Shown: piece by piece, positions 1-51,883 of the stretch
Layout: the number at the start of each line of letters is the position of its first letter
Numbering within the stretch: the first letter of the stretch is position 1
Source of the DNA: Candidatus Sulfidibacterium hydrothermale
GTDB lineage: Bacteria > Bacteroidota > Bacteroidia > Bacteroidales > F082
Direction of reading: 5' to 3'
Assembly (NCBI RefSeq): GCF_020149915.1
Contig: NZ_CP083760.1
Coordinates: 62,001-126,000 of the forward strand
DNA: 64,000 nt
The notes under the pieces: generated by a model
The model's database searches: none
Told to the model about the DNA's origin: nothing
The model's input: the letters and a program-made list of their open reading frames with translations, nothing else
Translations under genes and position numbers: made by a program

Positions 1-1098
1 GAAGAAATCGACTATGCCCTGCTGCTCGACGGCCTGAAAGCCGAACGCGAACAAGGTATCACCATCGATGTGGCTTACCGCTATTTTTCCACCGCCAAGC
101 GGAAATTTATCATTGCCGACACCCCCGGCCACGAGCAATATACCCGCAACATGATTACCGGTGGTTCCACAGCCAACCTCGCTATTTTGCTGGCCGATGC
201 CCGCAAAGGAGTGATCACCCAGACCAAACGGCATACTTTTCTGGTTTCGCTGTTGGGTATTAAACACGTGGTACTGGCTGTGAACAAAATGGACCTGGTG
301 GATTACAAACAGGAAGTTTTCGACCGTATTGTGGAAGATTACAAACGGTTTATCACCCAGCTGGATGTGCCGGATGTAACCTTTATTCCGCTTTCGGCCC
401 TGAAAGGCGATAACGTGGTGGAGGTGTCAGACAAAATGCCCTGGTATCACGGCCAAAGCATGCTCGAATTTTTGGAAACCGTGCATGTGAGCAGCGACCG
501 CAATTTTGAAGATTTTCGTTATCCGGTGCAGTATGTTATCCGTCCCGACCTGAAATACCGCGGATTTGCCGGGAAAATGGCTTCGGGTGTGGTACGTAAA
601 GGTGATGAGGTGATGGTACTGCCTTCCGGGAAAAAATCTAAGGTAAAAACCATTACCACGTACGACGGCGATCTGGACTATGCTTTTCCGCCGCAGAGTA
701 TCAGCCTGACACTCGAGGACGAAATTGATATTTCGCGCGGCAACATGCTGGTACATCCGGATAACCTGCCCCAGGTGAGCCGTCACTTTGAAGCCATGCT
801 GGTGTGGATGGACGAAAAGCCCATGAATCCATTTACCCAATTTTACATCAAACACAACACGCACAGCACCAAAGCCAAGATTGATCAAATCCGTTACCGG
901 GTAGATGTCAACACGCTGGAGCACCAGACTATTGACCATTTTGAGCTGAACGAAATCGGCCGGGTAGTCATCACCACGGTGGAACCGCTTTATTTTGATG
1001 CTTACAAAAAGAACCGGCAAACCGGTGCTTTTATTCTGATTGATCCGATTACGCACAACACAGTAGCTGTGGGCATGATGCTGGATAAACTCAGTAGT
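1..1098 (+). repeat. Long inverted repeat, arm 1 (cysN part of cysNC)
   Basis: This stretch matches 47399-48496 in opposite orientation, without gaps and with only scattered base changes: I count two differences in one stretch of about 140 bases and three in another. The encoded protein is identical throughout. Identity collapses just after the codons for LSSD. The match may extend beyond the left edge of the window. Confidence 0.95.
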
Positions 1099-1725
1099 GA
1101 TGCGTTACCTACCCGCATTACCGATGACGAAAAAAGCATGATTGCTGCCGGTCGTAGTCTGGTAAGCCGTGAAGAACGCGAAAAACACTACAACCAGAAA
1201 GGCGCTACGCTTTGGATTACCGGTCTTTACGGAAGCGGTAAAAACGAGCTGGCTTTTGTACTGGAAAAAGAACTGATCGGGTCGGGCGCCACAGTGGTAG
1301 TACTTGACGGCAAATCGTTGCGGTCGGGACTGTCGCGTGAGCTGGATTTTGATCCGGCCGACCGTGCCGAGCATCTGCGGCGGGTGGCCCACATTGCCCG
1401 TATTCTGAACGACCAGGGGATACTCACCATTTGTTCTTTTACCTCACCGGATGAAAACGTCCGCCGCCAGGTGGCCGAAATCATCGGCCCCGATCGCTTC
1501 CATCTGATTTATATGGATGCCGACGTGGAATATTGCAAAAAACACGCTGACGGCGATTTATACGAACGGTACGAAAAAGGGGAAGTACGCCATTTGCCGG
1601 GTGTGGACATGCCTTACGAGATTCCTGAAAAGCCGCAGCTTGTTTTCCGTCCCGAAGAACAGGAAACCAATACAGAAAAAGTACTGGAATATCTGAAAGA
1701 AAATAAAATTTTCCCACTGGAATAG
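1..1725 (+). CDS. cysNC: Sulfate adenylyltransferase subunit 1 / APS-kinase-like fusion (CysNC), copy 1, 5' end outside window
   Basis: The protein is the GTPase subunit of ATP sulfurylase, which with CysD makes APS from sulfate and ATP, fused to a C-terminal APS-kinase-like domain. The reading frame is open from base 1, so the start and the GTPase P-loop lie outside the window; the GTG at 70 is internal. Visible are the GTPase G3 motif DTPGHEQ, the G4 motif NKMD, two beta-barrel domains, and from about base 1195 a kinase domain. In that domain the Walker A reads GLYGSGKN, with Asn where Ser/Thr is expected, and the usual DGDNxR reads DGKSLR, although the phospho-acceptor region CSFTSP is kept. 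Bases 1-1098 align without gaps to 48496-47399 on the minus strand. Whether the kinase domain is active is uncertain. Confidence 0.93.
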
Positions 1726-2158
1726 CTGTGTGAGGCGAAGTTTCTTTTGGACGTGGACCTGCAAAACGGGTAGTTTCCGCATTTTTCATTCACCAAGGGG
1801 AGTGGATGCTTGAACGATTGTAGAAATTGCGAAGTGGCGAAACATCAAACATCCCACATTTTTACATCTACATCCAAACATCTCCACGTCTCACATCCAA
1901 GCATCCCCCACATCTCCCATCCAAACATCCTCATGTCCTCACGTCCTTCTGCGGCAGGGATGGTGCGGATAGCCCGCAGGGCCGGGGCCGACGGAAGGCT
2001 TGCGGAGGCGGGGCGACAGGCGAAGCCCCCGCAAACGCTTAGCCGACGCGGCGCCGGAACGAGGACTATGAGCAACCAGCCCGTGATGGCCTGTGCGTGG
2101 GCCCGCCCATATCAAAATATATCGGACAAGTCTGCCCGGTTTAAAAAGAAAAAAGCCG
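1726..2158. other. Gene-free region: cATCC-rich tract followed by a GC-rich block
   Basis: No credible gene is seen. About 1845-1950 is a low-complexity tract built on repeats of catcc/cacatc, similar to one at 13380-13462. About 1955-2110 is abruptly GC-rich, in contrast to its surroundings, and reads like a degenerate interspersed repeat. Open frames here have no recognisable protein features and I treat them as chance. Confidence 0.5.
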
Positions 2159-2189
2159 TTTGTTTCTGTTTGATTTCTCAGTACTTTTG
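2159..2189 (+). promoter_or_regulatory. Promoter of glnS
   Basis: TTTG (2159-2162), a 19-base spacer and TACTTTTG (2182-2189) match the Bacteroidetes sigma-ABfr consensus TTTG-N19-TAnnTTTG exactly. The ATG of glnS follows 32 bases later. Confidence 0.7.
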
Positions 2190-2221
2190 CGTTTTCATTT
2201 GAACTTAACGACTTGAACAAT

Positions 2222-3901
2222 ATGGAATCGGCTGAAAACAGCGCGCGGTCGCTCAATTTTATAGAGACAATTATCGAGGAAGACCTGCGCAACCATAAAA
2301 ACGGCGGGAAGGTACATTTCCGGTTTCCGCCCGAACCGAACGGTTATCTGCATATCGGTCATGCCAAATCGATTTGCCTGAATTTCGGGCTGGCAGAAAA
2401 GTATCACGGGCCGTGTAACCTGCGCTTTGACGATACCAATCCAACCAAAGAGGATACGGAATATGTGGATTCGATTAAAGAGGATATCCGGTGGCTGGGG
2501 TTCCGCTGGGAAGGGGAACCGAAATATGCTTCGGATTATTTTGACCAGCTGTATGCGTGGGCGGTGATGCTGATAAAAAAAGGCCTGGCGTATGTAGATG
2601 AGCAGACGCAGGAAGAAATCAGTCGCCAGAAAGGGGTTCCGACACGGCCGGGTATTGAGAGTCCGTACCGGAATCGTCCGGCGGAAGAGAGCCTGGCACT
2701 GTTTGAGCAGATGAAAAACGGCGAAGTGCCCGACGGCGCCATGGTGCTGCGGGCCAAAATCGACATGAGCTCGCCCAACATGCACCTGCGCGACCCCATC
2801 ATGTACCGTGTGTTGCATGCCGAACATCACCGTACCGGCAAAAAATGGTGTATTTATCCTATGTACGACTTCGCCCACGGGCAGTCGGATTACATAGAAG
2901 GGATTACGCACTCGCTGTGTACGCTGGAATTTGAGATTCACCGGCCGTTGTACGACTGGTTTCTGGACCAGATTGCCGAAGAGGGACGGCCACGGCCGCG
3001 ACAGATTGAGTTTGCCCGGCTGAACCTGAGCTATACGGTGATGAGTAAACGAAAACTGCTGGAACTGGTGGAAAAAAAGATTGTATCGGGCTGGGACGAC
3101 CCGCGGATGCCAACCCTTTCGGGAATGCGGCGGCGGGGCTTTACGCCGGAAGCTATCCGCGATTTTTCGGACCGTGTGGGCATTGCCAAACGGAACAACG
3201 TGATTGACGTGGGACTGCTGGAATTTAGCGTGCGTGAGCATCTGAACAAAATCACCCCGCGGGTTTTCGGCGTGCTCGACCCGGTGAAAGTCATCATCAC
3301 CAACTACCCGGAAGACCAAACGGAAATGCTGACGCTGATTAACAATCCGGAAGATGAAAGTGCCGGCACGCGCGAAGTACCGTTTACACGGGAACTGTAT
3401 ATCGAACGCAACGATTTTATGGAAGATCCGCCGCGGAAGTTTTTCCGCCTGGGACCGGGCCGCGAGGTACGCCTGAAAGGGGCTTACATCATCAAATGCG
3501 AAGATTATAAAAAAGATGAAAACGGCAACATCACCGAAATATACTGCACTTACGACCCCGAAACCAAAAGTGGCAGCGGCGTACAACGCAAAGTGAAAGG
3601 TACGTTGCACTGGGTATCGGTAAGGCATGCAGTGGATGCTGAAGTGCGGCTGTACGACCGGCTGTTTTCGGATGAAGATCCGGCCGGGCACAAAGACCGT
3701 GATTTTAAAGAGTTTCTGAACCCCGATTCGCTGAAAATTTTGGAACATTGCAAGCTGGAACCTTCGCTGAAAACGGTACAACCGGGCGACAAATTTCAGT
3801 TTCAGCGCATTGGCTATTTCTGCGTGGACAAAGAGAGTACGCCGGAACAGTTGATTTTTAACCGGACGGTGGCACTGCGCGACAGTTGGAAGAAGAGATA
3901 G
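2222..3901 (+). CDS. glnS: Glutaminyl-tRNA synthetase
   Basis: This class I synthetase charges tRNA-Gln with glutamine in the cytoplasm. The protein has the HIGH signature in [15 protein letters not shown] near residue 35-50, the KMSKS-equivalent VMSKRKL near residue 270, and C-terminal anticodon-binding beta-barrels. Its 559 residues fit the usual 550-570. I chose the ATG at 2222 over the TTG three codons earlier because it gives the normal N-terminus and lies at a proper distance from the consensus promoter. A strong hairpin terminator follows directly, so it is probably a single-gene transcript. Confidence 0.97.
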
Positions 3902-6881: not shown

Positions 6882-7073
6882 ATGAGCGGACGCAAGATAA
6901 TTGGAAAGAACCTTTCACACAATGCCGGAAGGCAAAAGTATACCAAAGGACGGCGACCTTGGGTCATCCATTACACCGAAACTTTCAAAACCCGTGCAGA
7001 AGCCATGCAACGTGAACAGTTTTTCAAAACCATTGACGGATACAACTTCCTTAAATCCAAGGAGATAATTTAA
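6882..7073 (+). pseudogene. N-terminally truncated GIY-YIG nuclease remnant
   Basis: The 63 codons read NAGRQKYTKGRRPWVIHYTETF...EAMQREQFFKTIDGYNFL, which is the C-terminal half of small GIY-YIG (UvrC/YhbQ-type) proteins. The diagnostic GIY...YIG strand pair and the catalytic Arg are missing, and the preceding bases do not supply them in any frame. I read it as a decayed copy of the GIY-YIG family seen intact elsewhere in this window. Confidence 0.6.
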
Positions 7074-23322: not shown

Positions 23323-23625
23323 TTAAATATCATGAATCTTATCATTCAAAAAATCCCATGTAGGATTAAATGCTGATATCAGCTTATTCTTTTTTTCTCT
23401 TCGCCACTTTTTTATTTCTTTTTCCCTGTCAATAGCATGGTCTATTCTCGTAAAATGTTCGTAATAAATCAGAAAATGGCAATTATATTTTTTTGTAAAC
23501 CCTTCATATTTTCCTGTTTCGTGTTCTTCTACTCTTCGTTCTAAGTCATTTGTCACGCCAATATACAGGACATTTTTGTATTTATTAGTCATGATGTAAA
23601 CGAAGTAGTTGTGAAAAAGGGCCAT
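23323..23625 (-). CDS. Small GIY-YIG nuclease-domain protein
   Basis: The 100-residue protein starts FVYIMTNKYKNVLYIGVTNDLERRVEEHETG, with the paired strands (here V/YI...YIG) and the catalytic Arg region, followed by YYEHFTRIDHAIDREKEIKKWRREKK with the conserved Glu. It is a stand-alone GIY-YIG domain of the UPF0213/YhbQ-like kind. Both flanks are palindromic repeats, and similar genes at 27150 and 50555 also sit in or between repeats. The function is unknown; it may be a passenger or helper of repeat mobility. Confidence 0.85.
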   Translation of the reverse strand: MALFHNYFVYIMTNKYKNVLYIGVTNDLERRVEEHETGKYEGFTKKYNCHFLIYYEHFTRIDHAIDREKEIKKWRREKKNKLISAFNPTWDFLNDKIHDI

Positions 23626-27149: not shown

Positions 27150-27446
27150 TCAATCTTCAATCTCATCATACAAATCTTTCCAACCCGGATTAAAATGATT
27201 GATAAGCGCTATTTTCTTATCCCTTTTCCAAGATTTTATTTGTTTCTCCCTTTCGTAAGCTTCACTCAGGTGAGGAAAGTATTCGTAATACACCAATTTA
27301 TCCACATTATATCTTGCTGTAAATGAATTGGGGAAAAATTTTGTCTTGTGTTGATATATCCTGTTTTTTAGCGCTGATGTTACACCTGTATATAAAACAG
27401 TATTCTTTTTTGTCGTTGTAATGTATGTGAAGCCGCCTCTTACCAT
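27150..27446 (-). CDS. Small GIY-YIG nuclease-domain protein between hairpin repeats
   Basis: The 98-residue protein reads FTYITTTKKNTVLYTGVTSALKNRIYQHK at the start and YYEYFPHLSEAYEREKQIKSWKR later, a full stand-alone GIY-YIG domain whose second strand has YTG instead of YIG. It lies exactly between a hairpin ending CGGGTGTGAGCATCT and one starting AGACTCTCACG. Elsewhere in the cluster these hairpins are joined by a spacer of about 40 bases, so the gene occupies the spacer position. Confidence 0.8.
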   Translation of the reverse strand: MVRGGFTYITTTKKNTVLYTGVTSALKNRIYQHKTKFFPNSFTARYNVDKLVYYEYFPHLSEAYEREKQIKSWKRDKKIALINHFNPGWKDLYDEIED

Positions 27447-49641: not shown

Positions 49642-50259
49642 TTACAGTACTTTAAGCGGATCAAACTTAATTTCCGGCAATATCTTTTTGAGCATATGCT
49701 GTACTGTTCTGTCGATATCAGGGTGGGTGTTATCTACTCTTAAAAAAGGTTTTTGGGGTGCTTCAAACGGAGCAGAGATGCCGGTAAAATTTTTGATCTC
49801 ACCGGTCCGGGCTTTTTTATACAAACCTTTCGGATCGCGTTGTTCACAAACTTCCAGCGGCGTATCCACAAATATCTCCAGGAAATCCTCCTCACCTATA
49901 ATCTCTTTGGCCATTTTTCGCATTTGGTTAGTCGGGCTGATAAAAGAACACAAAAGAATAATGCCACAATTCATGAACAGTTTGGAAACTTCCGCAATCC
50001 GCCGGATGTTTTCTATCCGGTCTTCATCGGTAAATTGCAGGTTTTTATTGATTCCGGAGCGCACATTGTCGCCATCAAGTATCTGGCAGAAATAATTCAA
50101 CTCGAACAATCTTTTTTCCAACAGACTGGCCAGGGTAGTTTTGCCGGAACCGGAAAGACCGGTAAACCAAATGACTTTGGCGCGTTGTTTTAAATAGATT
50201 TCTTTTTCGCGGCGGTCTTTGATTTTGTCGAAGACGGTGTGGATATTGTTTTTATTCAT
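49642..50259 (-). CDS. cysC: Adenylylsulfate kinase
   Basis: The enzyme phosphorylates APS to PAPS, the sulfate donor of the sulfotransferases. The 205-residue protein has a standard Walker A (GLSGSGKTTLASLLE), LDGDNVRSGINKNLQF, the phospho-acceptor loop CSFISPTNQMRKM, and FVDTPLEVCEQRDPKGLYKKARTGEIKNFTGISAPFE. Every motif that is altered in the CysNC tails is intact here, so this is the likely true APS kinase. Confidence 0.96.
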   Translation of the reverse strand: MNKNNIHTVFDKIKDRREKEIYLKQRAKVIWFTGLSGSGKTTLASLLEKRLFELNYFCQILDGDNVRSGINKNLQFTDEDRIENIRRIAEVSKLFMNCGIILLCSFISPTNQMRKMAKEIIGEEDFLEIFVDTPLEVCEQRDPKGLYKKARTGEIKNFTGISAPFEAPQKPFLRVDNTHPDIDRTVQHMLKKILPEIKFDPLKVL

Positions 50260-50533
50260 GATGTAAAAAGTTCAAAGGTTAAAGGGGAGGTAAAGGATAA
50301 AATTCAAAGGATAAAGGTTAAAGGAGTTAACGTTTTTTGGATGTTTTAGAATAGATGCTACCAAGAATTTTCATAAGTTCATTTGACTCGTCACGTTGTG
50401 CAAGCCATTCGTTATAGTTATCTGTAATTGCAATAACCAAACGAATCCAATAGTTGGACTCCCGCATTTCTTTTAACGCAATACCGATTTTATTCGAAAA
50501 ATCAGCTTTCGAAACAGCTCCTTGTGCCTCTTT

Positions 50534-50853
50534 ACCCTGTCAAATACGAATGAATCAACTTTTATTATTAGAATTTAAGAATGTTTTTAGTCTATTCCTT
50601 AAGAACATTTTCCCATAAAAAGTTTTTAGATATTTCTCACGACGAAGCGCATCTTTTTGTGACAAACATGCTTCATAATAAATTAGCTTTAATGGCCTTC
50701 TGTTTTTTGTTGAACTGACCTGCCCTTTAAAATGTTCATTCATTCGTTGTATCAAATTTGAAGTATACCCTGTGTAGAACTTATTATCTTTTTCACTTAA
50801 TAAAACGTAGACAAAAAAGAAATCATCCATAATTTGACACAATTTGACAGGGT
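50534..50853. mobile_element. 320-base inverted-repeat unit containing only a GIY-YIG gene
   Basis: The ends ACCCTGTCAAAT (50534-50545) and ATTTGACAGGGT (50842-50853) are perfect 12-base inverted repeats, extendable to 15 with one mismatch. The unit splits a four-helix-bundle gene cleanly. An additional direct AATTTGACA lies inside the right end (50831-50839 and 50841-50849). No obvious target duplication is seen. Confidence 0.75.
50555..50830 (-). CDS. Small GIY-YIG nuclease-domain protein carried by the inverted-repeat unit
   Basis: The 91-residue product from the ATG at 50830 reads MDDFFFVYVLLSEKDNKFYTGYTSNLIQRMNEHFKG at its N-terminus (strand pair VYVL...YTG, catalytic Arg). It then has YYEACLSQKDALRREKYLKTFYGKMFLRNRL with the conserved Glu. 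The gene fills almost the whole space between the terminal inverted repeats. The longer frame back to 50866 begins in the interrupted host gene and is not preferred. By itself the family suggests DNA nicking; a role in mobility of the unit is inference. Confidence 0.85.
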   Translation of the reverse strand: MDDFFFVYVLLSEKDNKFYTGYTSNLIQRMNEHFKGQVSSTKNRRPLKLIYYEACLSQKDALRREKYLKTFYGKMFLRNRLKTFLNSNNKS

Positions 50854-51091
50854 GAATAGTTTGCACCGCTGGATGTGGCAGATTTTATCAGCTGATAGCT
50901 AATTATATCATATTCTTTCCCTTTTGGGAATTCTCTTACCAAAGATATTATTTGGATTGAAAACTCAAATAAACGTTGTGATAAGTTATTATTATCCGAC
51001 TGCATTTTTTTTAATTTTCTCAATTATTTTTTATCCCAGCCCCCATTTTAACCTTTCCACTTTAACCTTTAACCCTGATCCTCGAGACAAA

Positions 51092-51883
51092 TTATTTCGT
51101 CACAACAAACCACGGGTTTAAAATATCTTCCTTATTGTATACTAAAGGTTCATTGGTGTTGGCAATAAGAACTTTCCCTCCGGCGGCACGGACAATGGCA
51201 TCACCGGCAGCCGTATCCCATTCGGAAGTCGGGGCAAAACGGGGATAAATATCCGCTTCACCTTCAGCAACCATGCAGAGTTTCAGCGAACTCCCTTTAG
51301 AAACTATTTTTACATTAGAATGCGCTTTTTCTAATTTTTTAATAAAATCTTCGGTTTCTTTTGTTAAGTGTGAACGACTGGCCACAATACCAAAATAATT
51401 TTTCGGGTTCTTTTTAGGAATCCTATTTTCTTCTTTTAATTCTTTATTTATATCTTGTTTTTTACCGGCTTGTTCTATTTTATAAGCTCCCTCTTTGCGA
51501 TCTCCAACGTATAAAATATCCAAAACCGGGGCATATACCACCCCCATTACCGGAACCTGATTTTCCACAAGTGCTATATTTACTGTAAACTCGCCATTTT
51601 TCTTCACAAACTCTTTGGTACCATCCAGCGGATCCACAATCCAGAGTCTTTTCCAGTTTTTTCGTTCGGAATAAGGAATGTTGCGTCCTTCTTCGCTCAA
51701 TACGGGAATTCTGGTTTTTTTCAGATAAGACATGATCACTTCGTTAGCGCTTTTGTCCGCTTGTGTCAATGGGGAACTATCGCTTTTATATTCCACATTA
51801 AAATCTGTTTTATAGATTTCGAGGATGGATTTGCCGGCATCTAATGATGCGGAGATTATTGTTGAGAGAAAATTTTTATCCAT
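51092..51883 (-). CDS. cysQ: 3'(2'),5'-bisphosphate nucleotidase
   Basis: This inositol-monophosphatase-fold enzyme hydrolyses PAP (and PAPS), removing the inhibitory by-product of sulfotransferases. The 263-residue protein has the metal-binding IPVLSEEGRNIPYSER, the signature LWIVDPLDGTKEFVKKNGEFTVNIALV, and the C-terminal TSEWDTAAGDAIVRAAGG. It lies in the sulfate-activation operon between the transporter and cysC. Confidence 0.95.
   Translation of the reverse strand: MDKNFLSTIISASLDAGKSILEIYKTDFNVEYKSDSSPLTQADKSANEVIMSYLKKTRIPVLSEEGRNIPYSERKNWKRLWIVDPLDGTKEFVKKNGEFTVNIALVENQVPVMGVVYAPVLDILYVGDRKEGAYKIEQAGKKQDINKELKEENRIPKKNPKNYFGIVASRSHLTKETEDFIKKLEKAHSNVKIVSKGSSLKLCMVAEGEADIYPRFAPTSEWDTAAGDAIVRAAGGKVLIANTNEPLVYNKEDILNPWFVVTK

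Follow-up and report, generated by a model that had tools for sequence, protein, structure and literature searches.

A GIY-YIG nuclease gene within a predicted three-way DNA junction: a candidate family of minimal mobile elements with gene-less derivatives

A 320-bp unit that is bounded by perfect inverted ends, holds a single GIY-YIG gene and interrupts another gene raises the question of whether it is mobile and, if so, what moves it. The unit lies in the 64,000-nucleotide stretch of Candidatus Sulfidibacterium hydrothermale DNA analysed here (NZ_CP083760.1, positions 62,001 to 126,000; hereafter the window). The initial annotation of this DNA took it for a minimal mobile unit in which the nuclease serves either as the mobility factor or as the passenger of an element mobilised in trans. 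The features of the unit and of the gene it interrupts are listed here.

50327..50533, minus strand: C-terminal part of the interrupted S23 gene, a 46-residue frame recognised via insert-free S23 copies
50534..50853, no strand assigned: candidate mobile unit, core ACCC...GGGT, 320 bp, preceded by TTT and followed by GAA on the plus strand; the S23 frame needs 322 bp removed
50534..50545, plus strand: left arm of the outer stem, ACCCTGTCAAAT, inverted pair with the right arm
50546..50563, plus strand: 5' side of inner arm A (last GIY-YIG codons, stop codon and bases beyond), 89% complementary to 50730-50747
50555..50830, minus strand: GIY-YIG nuclease gene, 91 codons, ATG start at 50830; Pfam PF01541; model pLDDT 91
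50730..50747, plus strand: 3' side of inner arm A, coding (codons of QRMNEH), pairs with 50546-50563
50748..50759, plus strand: 5' side of inner arm B, coding (codons of SNLI), 10 of 12 bases pairing with 50830-50841 by eye
50830..50841, plus strand: 3' side of inner arm B, gene leader directly before the right outer arm, pairs with 50748-50759
50842..50853, plus strand: right arm of the outer stem, ATTTGACAGGGT, exact reverse complement of the left arm
50854..51023, minus strand: N-terminal half of the interrupted four-helix-bundle (S23/IVP) gene, TIGR02436 1.4e-6

Most of what had been claimed for the unit is borne out. Its 12-base inverted ends are perfect, with the arm at 50534-50545 matched by its exact reverse complement at 50842-50853, and nowhere else in the 3.27-Mb genome does this 12-mer occur exactly. 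The single 91-codon frame that fills it, on the minus strand from the ATG at 50830, matches PF01541 (6.3e-17) and is the sole gene inside, in agreement with the claim that the unit contains no transposase. The interrupted gene had been described as encoding a four-helix bundle, and its N-terminal half matches TIGR02436 above the cut-off and PF05635 (0.0012) below it. The 46-residue C-terminal frame has no family match in the profile search and is recognised through insert-free S23 copies, which occur in the window's own genome and in one genome of the same genus (G006). At the insertion point of the window these copies read GTGCAAACTATGAAGAGGCACAAGG or similar; the G006 copy has a stop codon upstream of the site and consequently offers an empty site, not an intact gene. 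The claim that the two halves reunite in frame did not hold, as removal of 320 bp produces a frameshift and the halves fuse as one protein only after removal of 322 bp. Palindromic arms around the window's S23 gene were first suggested and then dropped, as they were not significant against shuffles.

Other GIY-YIG genes were noticed in the same genome, which has 17 matches in all. Three more matches lie in the window, at 23389-23610 (minus), 27213-27434 (minus) and 6915-7028 (plus), and none of the three proved to be surrounded by an exact inverted pair of at least 11. Elsewhere (C1:2733572-2735942, equivalent to 773-3143 of locus L100) lies an array of 6.7 tandem copies (99% matches) of a 356-bp unit, each consisting of a GIY-YIG gene and a tRNA-Met 3' end; the start of this array falls within a complete tRNA-Met gene, at its 3' end. 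In another genome (G435), a GIY-YIG gene at about 1470-1840 of L311 has other perfect inverted ends of at least 15 bp, CCCCTCACCTATGCC. This unit adjoins a tRNA-Lys gene at the latter's 5' end and has, by eye, the 11-base direct repeat GGGCCGGTAGC on both sides, and units of this related type may duplicate their target. A further GIY-YIG gene of G435 (L308) lies within another inverted pair, ATCCCGCCCTTC/GAAGGGCGGGAT, which suggests that palindromic ends are a wider habit of such genes.

GIY-YIG relatives came from a single scan of genomes collected at one per species, which found 195 places encoding one; the best 80 were kept. Both ends, with no more than one mismatch per end, are present in 63 of these 80 relatives, and perfect CCCTGTNAAAT/ATTTNACAGGG ends surround the gene in 43; outside the genes, about 414 kb of these loci contain 2 such pairs, which serve as the chance level. 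The other 17 fail this strict end test. A loose complementarity test accepted 71 of 80 but also 16 of 191 in its null, and the strict count was used in its place. Element size ranges from 277 to 322 bp. One base in the middle of the ends varies, and it is complementary between the two ends in 63/63 relatives (46 T-A, 12 G-C, 5 C-G). The search for further copies with the same ends, suggested in the initial annotation, thus finds them in relatives and none further in the window's own genome, and in the comparison of independent copies the inverted ends remain at the edge.

The 63 hosts, Patescibacteria among them, are labelled by their submitters as Bacteroidota (12), Moraniibacteriota (8), Thermodesulfobacteriota (4), Cloacimonadota (3), Myxococcota (3), Campylobacterota (2) and others; 20 of the 63 have no phylum label. 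The resolution of a GIY-YIG tree (78 proteins, 85 columns) was too low for it to demonstrate transfer between phyla. The pattern with an interior of 250-280 occurs in 0 of 173 genomes of the window's own family, a count that leaves room for copies of the window's own size, as its interior of 296 is itself outside the pattern. Because the window unit is single in its own genome and none of these 173 genomes fits the pattern, no recent activity is shown there. Several familiar identities were also considered and set aside. At the gathering cut-off, Rfam gave no rRNA and no intron in the 80 loci (L020-L099), only tRNAs and one DUF3800-V RNA, and no match, introns included, in the window at 50000-51400; a group I or group II intron was rejected on this basis, and no known RNA family was found in a set of 10 loci. 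Carriage by phages or plasmids was rejected, with only weak matches in 5 of 50,697 phage records, 3 of 72,556 plasmid records and one viral contig, as was a defence system, the window protein having no PADLOC match.

The initial annotation missed a second level of organisation in the unit. Two inner inverted pairs abut the outer pair with zero unpaired bases, such that the unit would form a three-way junction in which one side of inner arm A and both sides of inner arm B are, by eye, coding or nearly so; codons would accordingly serve structure. The predicted DNA fold is this junction on both strands, with z scores of -4.2 (0 of 100 shuffles as good) and -3.3 (1 of 100). The C-terminus of the window protein has diverged, yet both inner arms are kept with different letters.

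The junction was tested in the 64 full elements (63 relatives and the window) by comparing the bases inside each end with the adjoining inner stretches. Its score exceeds the maximum of 192 triplet-shuffled controls in 55 of 64 elements and the 95th percentile in 59, and in 33 of the 64 all 20 of 20 bases pair with no unpaired base at the junction. Measured from the left end, the position of the junction is 87-101 nt in the 59 elements that score at least 16. The stems of these elements (43 distinct arm sets) are 96.2% Watson-Crick, compared with a shuffle maximum of 83.3%, and two-sided (compensatory) changes number 124 in 16 pairs, compared with a shuffle maximum of 32. The 59 were themselves chosen for pairing, and the per-element test on all 64 is therefore the cleaner of the two. 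The junction is missing in 5 of the 64 (L029, L038, L046, L075, L086). Eight of the 17 failures of the strict end test were examined with 8-bp arms; four (L039, L052, L091 and L092) score above every one of 120 shuffles, and the other four (L058, L060, L079 and L095) do not. A preferred folding strand was considered and rejected, with G.T 8 versus A.C 15 on the gene strand of full elements and GU 12 versus 12 in short copies. Only the base pair that adjoins the core shows a bias (G.T 12, A.C 1, p 0.003, in the 72 of 125 copies with flank polarity, these copies not being independent).

Evidence of movement comes from dispersed copies and from empty sites. Two full copies in genome G223 (L356 and L357) are 98.3% identical and have flanks that are 51% alike. 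The elements L072 and L077, from two species, are identical and lie in S23 genes that are clearly diverged on both sides, and L029 and L046 are 98.9% identical with strongly diverged flanks. For L072/L077 an orthologous empty site is found in G268 between the same neighbours. For L084, which lies between atpD and atpC, this junction was read in 17 relatives of a 34-genome family and supplies empty sites, for instance GAGATTAAAAAATAA in G531 where L084 has GAGATT-C-element-AAAAAATAA. The same position holds a 25-nt palindrome with similar ends in G539 and an S23 gene with its own inverted arms in G536 (L333). Uninterrupted alleles therefore exist for L072 and L084, and, as judged from sequence comparison, mobility follows from the orthologous empty sites together with near-identical copies in unrelated or diverged flanks. 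The reading of the unit as a minimal mobile unit is supported: it was to be abandoned if no second unit with these ends and no uninterrupted allele existed, or if the ends fell outside a comparison of independent copies, and second units, empty alleles and ends at the edge were all found.

The joint between element and target is less regular. No target duplication is seen at the orthologous empty sites of L072/L077 and L084. Among 51 short, gene-less copies (described below), 30 have no common flanking base and 21 have 1-4; in four the same 4 bases stand on either side (TCAA in three), and a small duplication could account for this. Flank polarity is evident in 72 of 125 copies (71 short, 54 full), mostly as TTT before and GAA after the element or the mirror TTC before and AAA after, in either orientation relative to the core, and most remaining flanks are TTTA..TAAA-like. 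A base added beside the core is absent from the empty sites, and both orthologue comparisons give the core plus one base. The frames of 19 interrupted genes require 2, 1 and 0 extra bases (mod 3) in 8, 6 and 5 cases, and since they disagree, an exact rule of core plus one or core plus two was rejected as universal.

The insertion sites are varied. Of the 80 loci, 16 were read as insertions in S23 genes, mostly after '(S)V.AN(Y/I/S)'; one gene half passes the TIGR02436 cut-off in 14 of these 16 cases, with L025 below it and L049 without a match. GxxExxY genes are interrupted in 3 of 80, and the TIGR04256 cut-off is passed in L027 and L038 and not in L099. An ATG lies no more than 14 nt past the right end in 21 of 63 elements. 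The use of the same site in diverged S23 genes is a homing-type pattern, yet many other sites are used as well, and S23 insertion is one frequent outcome of element movement. Some S23 genes have palindromes around or within them: the L072 gene has inverted arms of repeated 10-12-mers, above shuffles, and the L333 gene has flanking inverted arms of this kind by eye, so that separate palindromic elements may carry S23 genes. At L029 (2051-2091) and L046 (797-837), the 3' part of the same S23 gene that holds the element also contains a 41-bp palindrome with ends of this type; it is in frame and adds a peptide, as the palindromic elements of Rickettsia likewise do.

Gene-less short copies with the same ends (30-60 bp by pattern) are present in 28 of 49 element-bearing genomes, which are the source of 50 of the 80 loci and of which 39 contain the strict full pattern. 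The window's own genome has 0 short copies, and the reversed-pattern control gave 0/50. Of 71 distinct short copies, the interior forms two hairpins in 53, one in 17 and none in 1, and the fold z is below -2 against shuffles in 53 of 71. These two-hairpin interiors indicate that most short copies are the same junction with shortened loops. At least 20 copies are present in genome G231: the strict pattern finds 12, and 300 kb examined further contain 8 more that have longer interiors or one mismatch. Seven of the copies in this genome, of 80-82 bp, have 9 pairs with two-sided change, a number reached in 0 of 500 shuffles. Nested copies also occur, with a whole second element in place of a hairpin. 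In Moranbacteria, 16 places matching parts of the full element were examined; 12 of them (L340-L350, L352) contain deletion derivatives of 110-151 bp with perfect ends, and 11 of these 12 have a junction score of at least 15, compared with a maximum of 14 in 240 shuffles. They retain the ends and, by eye, C-terminal coding sequence, and the catalytic part is gone; like MITEs, they are gene-less copies that share ends and interior with the full element.

The distribution of short copies was also compared with that of the nuclease. Among 239 sampled Patescibacteria, the strict pattern finds a full element in 3, including the centre genome and one already known, and a short copy in 6. Short copies occur in 17 of 26 element-bearing Patescibacteria (those so named among the 49) compared with 5 of 236 unselected ones (the 239 minus the centre genome and two genomes among the 49; p 3e-16). 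GIY-YIG matches number 12, 5, 5, 1 and 9 in the five unselected genomes that hold short copies, whereas nine without them, the first ones of the list, have 0-2 (p 0.004). ACCCTGT ends were found at 0 of 12 GIY-YIG loci examined, of the 32 matches in these five genomes, although L308 and L311 do have perfect inverted ends of other sequence, and the link of short copies there is consequently to the nuclease family and not to a full element with the same ends.

The properties of the encoded protein bear on its possible role. It is a single domain of 84-91 residues in 66 of 80 relatives; Y8, Y19, G21, R29 and E65 are invariant in 77/77 aligned proteins, and H33 is conserved in 76/77. An AlphaFold2 model of the window protein (pLDDT 91) has its best Foldseek matches in the PDB with SLX1 (7cq2, 3.7e-4) and UPF0213 (1zg2, 4.4e-4), followed by more SLX1 entries and At-HIGLE (7wme, 9e-3), and UvrC and I-TevI domains rank lower, at E 0.5 or worse. 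The fold and the invariant Tyr, Tyr/Gly, Arg, His and Glu place the protein in the SLX1/UPF0213 type. SLX1, HIGLE and ANKLE1 are reported to cut branched DNA, and from the predicted structure we infer an SLX1-type, structure-selective cleavage of branches by the nuclease of the element. Association and predicted structure favour a mobility factor over a passenger, the two roles left open by the initial annotation.

Because the element's own DNA can form a branch of the kind cut by related nucleases, the following mechanism is proposed. The sequence of the element can fold into a three-way DNA junction: its inverted ends pair as the outer stem, and the leader, two adjoining coding stretches and the 3' end of the gene supply the two inner ones. 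The folded ends would be extruded from the duplex or formed on single strands at replication, and would be recognised by the nuclease. Cleavage at the base of the junction would release the unit, and the released unit would be joined into a TTT^A-like site, with no consistent target duplication and often with 1-2 extra bases; the cleavage, the excised form and the exact joint are the inferred steps of this scheme. Gene-less junctions and deletion derivatives would be mobilised in trans by such a nuclease. The scheme builds on common ends, three stems with compensatory changes, gene-less junctions, empty sites and near-identical dispersed copies, all read from sequence. The window unit is probably one member of a family of minimal autonomous elements, in which the nuclease cuts the folded DNA that encodes it and also mobilises gene-less copies in trans. 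On balance, we lean towards transposable elements of a new class which, at about 280 bp, may be smaller than any autonomous element known so far. Such an element would move as a three-way junction cut by its own SLX1-like nuclease, with codons doubling as substrate arms, and would carry swarms of gene-less junctions and MITEs in trans across bacterial phyla.

Inverted ends of 12 bp are typical of elements recognised by a transposase, and the nuclease could be mere cargo in a MITE family whose transposase is encoded elsewhere. Gene-less copies with identical ends exist, as that account expects, and the four short copies with 4 common flanking bases fit it too. Against it, no larger element with these ends was recognised in the loci examined (about 380 kb in long stretches, where 13 longer end pairs were read, from positions and open frames, as neighbouring separate copies), the empty sites lack target duplication, and 30 of 51 short copies have no common flanking base. 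Moreover, the inner stems, like the ends, are conserved, which would be needless for a transposase that binds ends, and the presence of gene-less copies follows GIY-YIG content. A passenger role is thus unlikely, if the least unlikely of the alternatives; the features of a DDE-type insertion sequence, or of a MITE of one, were not found, as no transposase gene was recognised between such ends in the loci examined and the empty sites show no target duplication. Same-site transfer between diverged S23 homologues also looks like homing, and the nuclease might cut uninterrupted S23-like alleles, with repair copying the insert and the stems being incidental or regulatory. The near-identical elements at the same site in L072/L077 and L029/L046 agree with this, as do the 16 insertions in S23 genes and 3 in GxxExxY genes among 80 (14/16 and 2/3 passing the NCBIfam cut-off). 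Homing nevertheless does not account for insertions at unrelated places (two in one genome, the atpD-atpC junction, and those near start codons, 21 of 63), and it leaves the gene-less copies and the conserved junction without explanation; we regard it as improbable, more so than a passenger role.

Stem pairing can also be maintained by quasi-palindrome correction, and template switching at replication might make and spread the palindromes, with the nuclease an independent gene (for example of repair or defence) that settled inside one. The nested copies, in which a hairpin is replaced by an entire element, can be explained in this way, and the two GIY-YIG genes with quite different inverted ends (L308, L311) are compatible with it. 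To our knowledge, however, template switching does not bring complete units of 290 bp, still 98% identical, to unrelated loci or from one species to another, and 98%-identical units at unrelated loci and identical units across species are what is seen; the association of short copies with GIY-YIG number also argues against it. As an account of the whole element it is the least probable of those considered here, although short palindromes could be spread or perfected by template switching without the nuclease.

The preferred reading, an element moved by its own nuclease, has several consequences. If the nuclease is the mobility enzyme, one GIY-YIG domain of 84-91 residues would be enough for DNA movement, a further enzyme class would join the known drivers of bacterial transposition, and the lower size limit of autonomous elements would shift downwards. 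The gene-in-junction design would place codons under selection for DNA structure, a prediction that is directly testable, and the element might find use as a very small DNA-insertion tool. The family would also explain where the dispersed palindromes of some Patescibacteria come from. No description of the family was found in a search confined to open-licence PMC papers, and the term 'inverted repeat' is absent from the available text of a 2006 phylogenomics paper on GIY-YIG (PMC1564403).

Comparison with known systems helps to place the element. IS200/IS605 elements have folded DNA ends. REP/REPIN sequences are small palindromes without a gene of their own, which a single small enzyme, the RAYT (TnpA-REP) transposase, is proposed to mobilise in trans (PMC3116915, PMC8266576). 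The family described here resembles these systems in its small palindromic gene-less copies and folded ends. It differs from them in having a GIY-YIG enzyme in place of a Y1 HUH one and a gene threaded through a three-way junction, and no GTAG tag was seen; membership in REP/RAYT or IS200/IS605 was rejected, since the only gene in the unit is of PF01541 and no Y1 HUH transposase lies within it. With SLX1, HIGLE and UPF0213 the nuclease shares its predicted fold; it is set apart from these and from ANKLE1 by its small size, its one domain and its location inside the branched DNA itself. With homing endonucleases of the I-TevI type the element shares a catalytic superfamily and same-site transfer between homologues, and it departs from them in its inverted ends, many targets, gene-less derivatives, lack of an Rfam intron and weaker match to the I-TevI fold. 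IS1272 is reported to carry a transposase gene and to transpose by replacing inverted repeats (PMC5678879); the element resembles it in the lack of target duplication and in the replacement of stem-loops, as in the nested copies here, and differs in carrying a GIY-YIG gene only. Finally, a 2024 study of rRNA insertions in CPR bacteria placed all GIY-YIG genes in non-intron insertions and doubted homing (PMC11270868); the words 'palindromic' and 'hairpin' are absent from its main text. Unlike those insertions, 0 of 80 element loci match an rRNA family. Like them, the element places a GIY-YIG gene in a non-intron insertion in the same host group, and the family perhaps explains the GIY-YIG insertions that have been reported, unexplained, in rRNA genes of Patescibacteria.
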